DNA from: a virus
Virus record (IMG/VR): IMGVR_UViG_3300048834_000406
Location: 1-24,176 of that record
DNA length: 24,176 nt
Direction: 5' to 3' (one strand)
The translations under genes and the position numbers were made by a program. The notes beneath the pieces were generated by a model. It was not told where the DNA came from and ran no database searches. It saw nothing but the letters and a program-made list of their open reading frames with translations. This document shows, piece after piece, positions 23,293 through 24,176 of the stretch (positions are counted from its first letter, which is position 1; each line of letters begins with the position of its first letter).

Positions 23293-24176
23293 GGATTTAC
23301 TCCCGCTGCTTTGAGTTCGGTGGTGGTGATCAGATCGAGCCGCAGCATGTCGGCGACATCGGTGTTCGAGACCAAGGAAGGGGGCGCGTTACCGCGCCGC
23401 AGCCAATTCGCCTTCATCGTCAGCGCGGCGAGGCGTGACTCTTCGGTTGGTGGTGGTGGCAAGCGCCCCTTCGCAGATCTCTGCGATTGGGTCTTCTCAT
23501 GCTTGGGTGGCTTGGGTGGGATGAAACCCGCGTTCTTGGCATCCACCCACCGCTGCATCGCCGGGGTGAAGTAACGCAGCGAGTTCGGCGGCCCATCCTT
23601 CTTGGTCGCCATGGCCTCGGCGATGATGGTTGCGATCTCCGCCTCGGTCAGCTTGAGGTCGGATATCCAGGCATCCACCACCAGCGCATCAGACGCCTTG
23701 ATCGGCGCCCCGATCACACCGGCGATCCGGTCGATCAGATCACCATTTTCCAGTTCACTCGCGCCCGCGCTACCACCACCACCTCTTTGTTCTGGCTCTG
23801 GTTCTGGCTCTGGTTCTGGTTCTGGGTTTCGATAGGGTTCCGATAGGCTATCGATAGCCTTTGAGATACGATTGATCTCGGCGTGGATACGCTCTGTTTC
23901 CTTGGTATGCTTGGAATCAAGCACATCCCTCAAAACAAAGACTTTTTGCCCGCAATCCGGCAGCGAAAGCGCCAGCTTTACAGCCGCAGAGGCATGCTTG
24001 GGATTGGTGAAGGGGTCGTGATCGAGGAAATCCACGATCCGAACCAGGTTTTCGAGCCTGTCGACGCCTATAAGGCCCGCATCGCATAGCCTATCGATAG
24101 CCTCTAGATAGCGTTCCACATGCCACCGAAGATCCTCGGCGGCGTAGCCGTCACGGAGGACAAAGCACCCCACCAT
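23289..24176 (-). CDS. Phage replication initiator-like protein, start possibly outside window
   Basis: A 295-aa minus-strand frame whose first ATG is the last codon of the window; the protein probably begins further right. N-terminal part (LRWHVERYLEAIDRLCDAGL, then LENLVRIVDFLDHDPFTNPK and ALSLPDCGQKVFVLRDVLD) resembles the helix-turn-helix part of phage replication proteins that end their N-domain with a 'NPP..LP.C' segment. A Pro-Glu repeat linker (118-129) and Gly-rich stretch follow, then a C-terminal part with TEAEIATIIAEAMATKKDGP and YFTPAMQRWVDAKNAG, typical of such initiators. It likely opens the origin and loads helicase. Two iteron clusters lie inside this gene. Confidence 0.78.
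   Translation of the reverse strand: MVGCFVLRDGYAAEDLRWHVERYLEAIDRLCDAGLIGVDRLENLVRIVDFLDHDPFTNPKHASAAVKLALSLPDCGQKVFVLRDVLDSKHTKETERIHAEINRISKAIDSLSEPYRNPEPEPEPEPEPEQRGGGGSAGASELENGDLIDRIAGVIGAPIKASDALVVDAWISDLKLTEAEIATIIAEAMATKKDGPPNSLRYFTPAMQRWVDAKNAGFIPPKPPKHEKTQSQRSAKGRLPPPPTEESRLAALTMKANWLRRGNAPPSLVSNTDVADMLRLDLITTTELKAAGVNP
23790..23825 (-). repeat. Six-unit 6-bp tandem repeat encoding a Pro-Glu linker
   Basis: TCTGGC/T-type hexamers repeated six times (read on the plus strand at about 23791-23826) encode PEPEPEPEPEPE, residues 118-129 of the initiator-like protein. It is a flexible, rigid-rod-like linker between the two domains and a likely length-variable microsatellite. Confidence 0.75.
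23830..23862. repeat. Iteron cluster 1: three 11-bp units in the initiator gene
   Basis: On the plus strand the consecutive units CGATAGGGTTC, CGATAGGCTAT and CGATAGCCTTT start exactly 11 bases apart at 23830, 23841 and 23852; a degenerate fourth (GAGATACGATT) follows. The second and third units join in a 16-bp palindrome AGGCTATCGATAGCCT (23845-23860). Since 11 is not a multiple of 3, the units fall in different reading frames, so the repeat is kept at DNA rather than protein level. Confidence 0.6.
24084..24116. repeat. Iteron cluster 2: three 11-bp units in the initiator gene
   Basis: Plus-strand units GCATAGCCTAT, CGATAGCCTCT and AGATAGCGTTC begin at 24084, 24095 and 24106, again 11 bases apart. 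The 13-bp string CTATCGATAGCCT is shared with cluster 1. The two clusters are about 240 bp apart, near 22 repeat lengths, and enclose a relatively AT-rich stretch around 23880-23955. Confidence 0.55.

Follow-up and report, generated by a model that had tools for sequence, protein, structure and literature searches.

Paired arrays of 11-bp repeats within a phage replication initiator gene as a probable replication origin

Among phages and plasmids, several replication origins have been described inside the gene that encodes the replication initiator. The origins of lambda and P22 lie inside the initiator genes O and 18, respectively (PMC7466680, PMC8022706), and in gene 18 of Salmonella phage L six imprecise 11-bp repeats (TGTCCAACGGA), at about nt 397-473 of the gene, have been proposed as a putative ori (PMC8022706). 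In repABC plasmids, the origin is also found inside the initiator gene (PMC3155836), and in pSK41 the N-terminal winged helix of the RepA_N protein Rep binds Rep boxes inside the rep gene, where the ori DNA encodes the linker (PMC5703833). Hence, in-gene origins, including 11-bp in-gene repeats such as those of phage L gene 18, are already known. In the present study, we analysed a 24,176-bp linear IMG/VR fragment (the window), in which a replication initiator gene contains two arrays of an 11-bp unit. We consider it highly probable that these repeats are the iterons of an in-gene phage origin bound by the encoded initiator, in the style of lambda O and of the RepA_N initiator of pSK41. A likely replication origin is thereby readable from sequence alone, for a broad and little-studied family of phage initiators, most of which are annotated as hypothetical proteins.

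The initiator gene and its protein family

The 5' end of the initiator gene is cut by the contig end and about 40 N-terminal codons are absent, as the nearest relative begins 40 residues earlier. The protein consists of a winged-helix N-terminal domain, followed by an (EP)n linker and a C-terminal domain. The first-pass annotation of this DNA had taken the product for a replication initiator, and this assignment was supported both by PHROG matches and by the helicase or dnaC-like neighbours seen in some relatives. The window protein matched phrog_25711 (2.6e-11) and phrog_1701 (DnaD-like helicase loader, 1.2e-10), and with the N-terminal-domain profile these two families were matched by 24/24 and 22/24 relatives, respectively. 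The PHROG names matched by the relatives were replication initiation, primosomal, replisome organizer and DnaD-like helicase loader, and annotated homologues have been named DNA replication protein O, primosomal protein I and replication initiation protein. The C-terminal parts gave no PHROG match for the window and the relatives L002 and L096, a primosomal protein for L099 and L100, and a replisome organizer/DnaD-like protein for L103. The C-terminal domain is swapped between relatives, and the N-terminal domain and the arrays remain joined.

In some relatives (L103, L098), a DnaB-like helicase gene directly follows the initiator homologue, and in others (L113, L116), such as Klebsiella phage ST13-OXA48phi12.4 and PhiR5_2, the following gene is dnaC-like. 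In PhiR5_2, the gene order is cI-cro-cII-O-dnaC. No helicase or loader gene is visible beside the gene of the window, because the contig ends inside the initiator gene. The other genes of the window include a P22-type portal, capsid and terminase, and the portal is closest to those of Sinorhizobium phage PBC5 and of Bcep22-like podoviruses. Downstream of the initiator gene, on the minus strand, are genes (22975-23292 and 22072-22674) for a small HTH protein and an MT-A70 type DNA methyltransferase; the start of the small HTH gene overlaps the initiator stop codon. A relative of the initiator was present in 2 of 385 alphaproteobacterial genomes. Megablast of window positions 12000-24176 against phage records gave no match, and the terminase small subunit, used as another route to near relatives, gave distant matches only, none with the initiator gene.

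A Pfam search assigned no domain to the initiator protein, that of the RepA_N sequence family included, and a PDB sequence search returned nothing significant. The L002 protein was modelled with AlphaFold2 (pLDDT 84.7, 16-row alignment), and in the model residues 4-95 form a winged helix with helices at 23-34, 48-55 and 60-72 and then a two-stranded wing. In classical winged helices, it is the third helix that serves for recognition. Array A falls at about residues 61-73, the third helix of the model, and would overlie the presumed recognition helix of the domain. Array B covers approximately residues 139-149, where helix 133-148 ends, ahead of a low-confidence linker. In VIA-align, the RepA_N initiators 4pql, 5kbj (a Rep-DNA complex) and 4pt7 ranked among the best matches, at Z 8.0-8.2, tied with LexA. 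Such matches alongside generic winged helices are consistent with a RepA_N-like fold but not decisive. Foldseek with the initiator model gave no match at E <= 0.001.

The repeat arrays and their conservation

On the coding (minus) strand of the initiator gene, an 11-bp unit of approximate sequence CCTATCGAAAG occurs in two groups of three, with an exact 11-bp pitch (Table 1). Arrays A and B are the only two matches in the window to SCTAT-N6-SCTAT-N6-SCTAT, a pattern that was produced in 0/100 dinucleotide shuffles, and the remaining CGATAG/CTATCG copies are scattered singles. The two clusters are thus confirmed as real, beyond chance, and the first-pass annotation was correct in their location, their spacing and a shared 13-mer (AGGCTATCGATAG). 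It had counted six CTATCG-type units; six are present, of which four are exactly CTATCG and the others CTATCT and CTATGC. It had also remarked that the units are out of step with the codons; in array B, each reading frame is used by one unit. Array A encodes YLEAIDRLCDA, the helix at the recognition-helix position of the winged helix, and array B encodes AIDSLSEPYRN, at the start of the linker.

Table 1. Positions of the initiator gene and of its repeat features in the window
Feature	Position	Strand	Description
Replication-initiator gene	23289..24176	-	295 codons visible; last gene of the window
Array A	24080..24112	-	Units 24112-24102 GCTATCTAGAG, 24101-24091 GCTATCGATAG, 24090-24080 GCTATGCGATG
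Inter-array stretch	23863..24079	-	Mildly lower GC; codes the remainder of the winged-helix domain
16-bp palindrome	23845..23860	.	AGGCTATCGATAGCCT; arises at the junction of two units; not kept in relatives
Array B	23826..23858	-	Units 23858-23848 GCTATCGATAG, 23847-23837 CCTATCGGAAC, 23836-23826 CCTATCGAAAC
Tandem 6-bp repeats	23789..23825	-	GAACCA type; encode the (EP)n linker; directly 3' of array B, likewise in most relatives

Two further elements had been put forward at first pass. The 16-bp palindrome is present, but it is not conserved in relatives, and it was dropped as a candidate RNA hairpin or cruciform. The AT-rich stretch between the clusters proved weak: the lowest 60-bp block has 42% GC in a gene of 59% GC, and across the family GC falls by 4-6 points only, over a region that takes in both arrays. 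These values give no support to a separate AT-rich unwinding element between the clusters.

The conservation of the units was examined in homologues gathered in several ways. L002, a relative of 46% identity that was identified solely through its protein, has its two arrays at the same positions as the window. When IMG/VR was scanned at the DNA level for GGCTATCGATAGNCTAT, the core of one array, 12 contigs were returned, of which 4 encode relatives of 31-56% identity with units in the same places and 8 (L003-L007, L012-L014) encode no detectable relative in the stretch examined; in L007, a CTATCGATAGCCTATCG pair lies at 2756. Further relatives were gathered by a peptide-pattern scan with a pattern chosen outside the arrays. 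Counting the window, 12 distinct long homologues were compared; each of them has units at A, at B or at both, and the Leu codon CTA of array A is invariant (12 of 12). The units were absent in all 4 distinct short homologues (a virus contig, Devosia, Rhizobiaceae and Mesorhizobium), which keep the winged helix and are without the linker and the C-terminal domain. Loss of the iterons from relatives with a conserved protein, named beforehand as the result that would speak against an origin, was therefore not what was found, as every long homologue of the class has the units and the short ones have none.

A comparison of synonymous sites had also been proposed, and sites at the units were conserved about twice as well as those elsewhere. 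At identical amino acids, codon identity was 0.86 at array A, 0.75 at array B and 0.41 in the rest of the domain, and shuffling each gene's own codons gave 0.33 +/- 0.03, with 0/500 shuffles reaching the observed values. After dropping the sequences found by the DNA pattern, the identities were 79%, 73% and 41%, respectively. Furthermore, CTATCGN5CTATCG has 15 matches in the 255 kb of 11 whole records, and every one of them falls inside the initiator gene. In L101, one extra unit has been gained through an in-frame 12-nt insertion. These results show that the repeats are under DNA-level selection and, in the records scanned, are confined to the initiator gene.

A wider profile search gave 80 loci, and periodicity was assessed in a family set of 72 non-redundant (<75% identity) long homologues. 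Lag 11 was significant at A in 45 of these, at B in 37 and at either place in 53; in about a quarter, 11-bp periodicity did not reach significance at the fixed positions examined. Among the control lags, 8 and 14 gave 0 genes, and 10, 13, 16 and 17 gave 8 or fewer. At A and B alike, the mean self-match is greatest at lag 11 and shows another rise at 22-23. Lag 23 is the second preferred lag at array A in the AAAGGGTTTCG class (e.g. L143, L163, L178) and the best lag in 17/86 long genes, which suggests that 11- and 12-bp spacing are mixed in that class. L202 and L203 have a strong 10-bp, not 11-bp, repeat at position B (gene nt ~415).

Across the family, related 11-mers substitute for one another. 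By alignment by eye, the classes are AAAGGCTATCG (the window), AAAGGGTTTCG (the commonest) and AAGGGGCTTCA (Acinetobacter, E. coli PhiR5_2 and Ideonella). Within a gene the match between A and B units was 11.35, against 7.99 +/- 0.29 between genes (0/5000 permutations), as expected if one protein reads both. Thus, the units evolve in concert between the arrays; they are also linked to the N-terminal domain. Within the AAGGGGCTTCA class, phage Fraca has array B in direct orientation, and Acinetobacter, PhiR5_2 and Ideonella have it inverted; the flip retains the DNA site but yields a different peptide (EGASKGLAS versus APSKPLRS).

In most relatives, array B is followed by a hexamer tandem repeat (GAACCx, GATACA or CAGGAA). 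The QE tracts of 20 genes use CAG 94 times and CAA 8 times, and GAA 87 times and GAG 11 times, compared with 124:76 and 226:159 elsewhere in those genes. This uniformity of the tract codons suggests DNA-level constraint or slippage. In L149, the hexamer repeat (gene nt ~392-430) is inverted (CCTGCT type) and codes PAPAPA, not QEQE.

Origin reading and rival explanations

The lambda O analogy drawn in the first-pass annotation, that of origin iterons within the initiator gene, is well supported at the sequence level, and from the same evidence we infer protein binding, origin activity and joint action of the arrays. Binding of the initiator to the repeats is suggested by the concerted evolution of arrays A and B. 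In the mechanism that we propose, the N-terminal winged-helix domain would bind the 11-bp units at both arrays and, with the units one helical turn apart, all of them would lie on one face of the DNA. The initiator on two blocks about 220-250 bp apart may then build an O-some-like nucleoprotein complex, which would open nearby DNA, and the C-terminal domain would recruit a helicase loader or helicase, so that the helicase is loaded.

Arrays of short sites are typical of operators too, and a winged-helix protein could repress its own gene; the repeats might therefore tune or block transcription, through initiator autoregulation or a separate repressor, and not serve as an origin. We regard this as unlikely, because the sites lie 200-450 nt into the coding sequence, paired units occur nowhere else in the 11 records, and short homologues that retain the winged helix are without units. 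In addition, the family is annotated as initiators and stands beside helicase or loader genes. The sites could also serve some other DNA function, such as partition, packaging or control by an RNA hairpin, and the 16-bp palindrome of the window and a ParB-like gene adjoining the homologue in a Klebsiella phage would agree with this. However, the palindrome is not conserved, and the units follow the initiator N-terminal domain across unrelated neighbourhoods, not ParB or terminase, which makes these functions very improbable.

That the repeats stem only from protein constraint at a helix and linker or from slippage of codons, the DNA itself having no function, is the explanation to which we give almost no weight. 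It would draw on the helix encoded by array A and on the position of array B, next to a low-complexity linker, a setting in which tandem duplications often arise. On the other hand, 11 bp is not a multiple of 3, so that successive units fall in different reading frames, and the control lags carry no signal. The codon test, in which identity doubled at the arrays only, contradicts this explanation. The inversion of array B, which alters the peptide, and the concerted evolution of A and B also speak against a purely protein-level cause.

On the reading as origin iterons, array A would serve both as origin DNA and as the coding sequence of the helix by which this DNA is read. Site and helix would then be locked together, and the classes AAAGGCTATCG, AAAGGGTTTCG and AAGGGGCTTCA could change only in a coupled manner, with array B following; we offer this idea tentatively and think it somewhat more likely to be wrong than right. 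If array A does function, it would be an unusual stretch of DNA that both encodes a DNA-reading helix and is itself read. The naturally diverged pairs of initiator and site mean that rules of specificity could come from comparison.

Comparison with known systems

In the open PMC literature, we found no description of a family-wide two-array layout in which one array lies over the presumed recognition-helix codons, of the interchange of 11-mers or of the orientation flips, and an earlier account is possible. The PHROG families 1701 and 25711, matched by the window protein and nearly all its relatives, have entries that describe the protein. The system of pSK41 differs in being that of a plasmid, with four boxes in the central linker region only, and its protein gave no sequence match to the initiator described here. 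In the record of phage L, we confirmed a strong lag-11 array in gene 18; in its putative ori (L205, 31649-31725), the 11-bp repeats form two groups separated by about 30 bp. These repeats have a gene position like that of array B, but they differ in sequence, occupy one 77-bp region with nothing at position A, and belong to a protein with no significant similarity. In a search with the family profile, lambda O gave no match, and P22 gp18 and phage L gp18 gave matches that were not significant.

In lambda, a single block next to an AT-rich element holds four 18-bp iterons at intervals of about 20-24 bp, whereas the locus described here has 11-bp units in two blocks, one of them inside the winged-helix coding region, and no strong AT-rich element. 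As in some relatives of the window gene, O of lambda is followed by the helicase/loader gene. Lambda O and P22 gene 18 resemble the present gene in that an early-operon initiator gene holds its own iterons between the N-terminal DNA-binding part and the C-terminal part.
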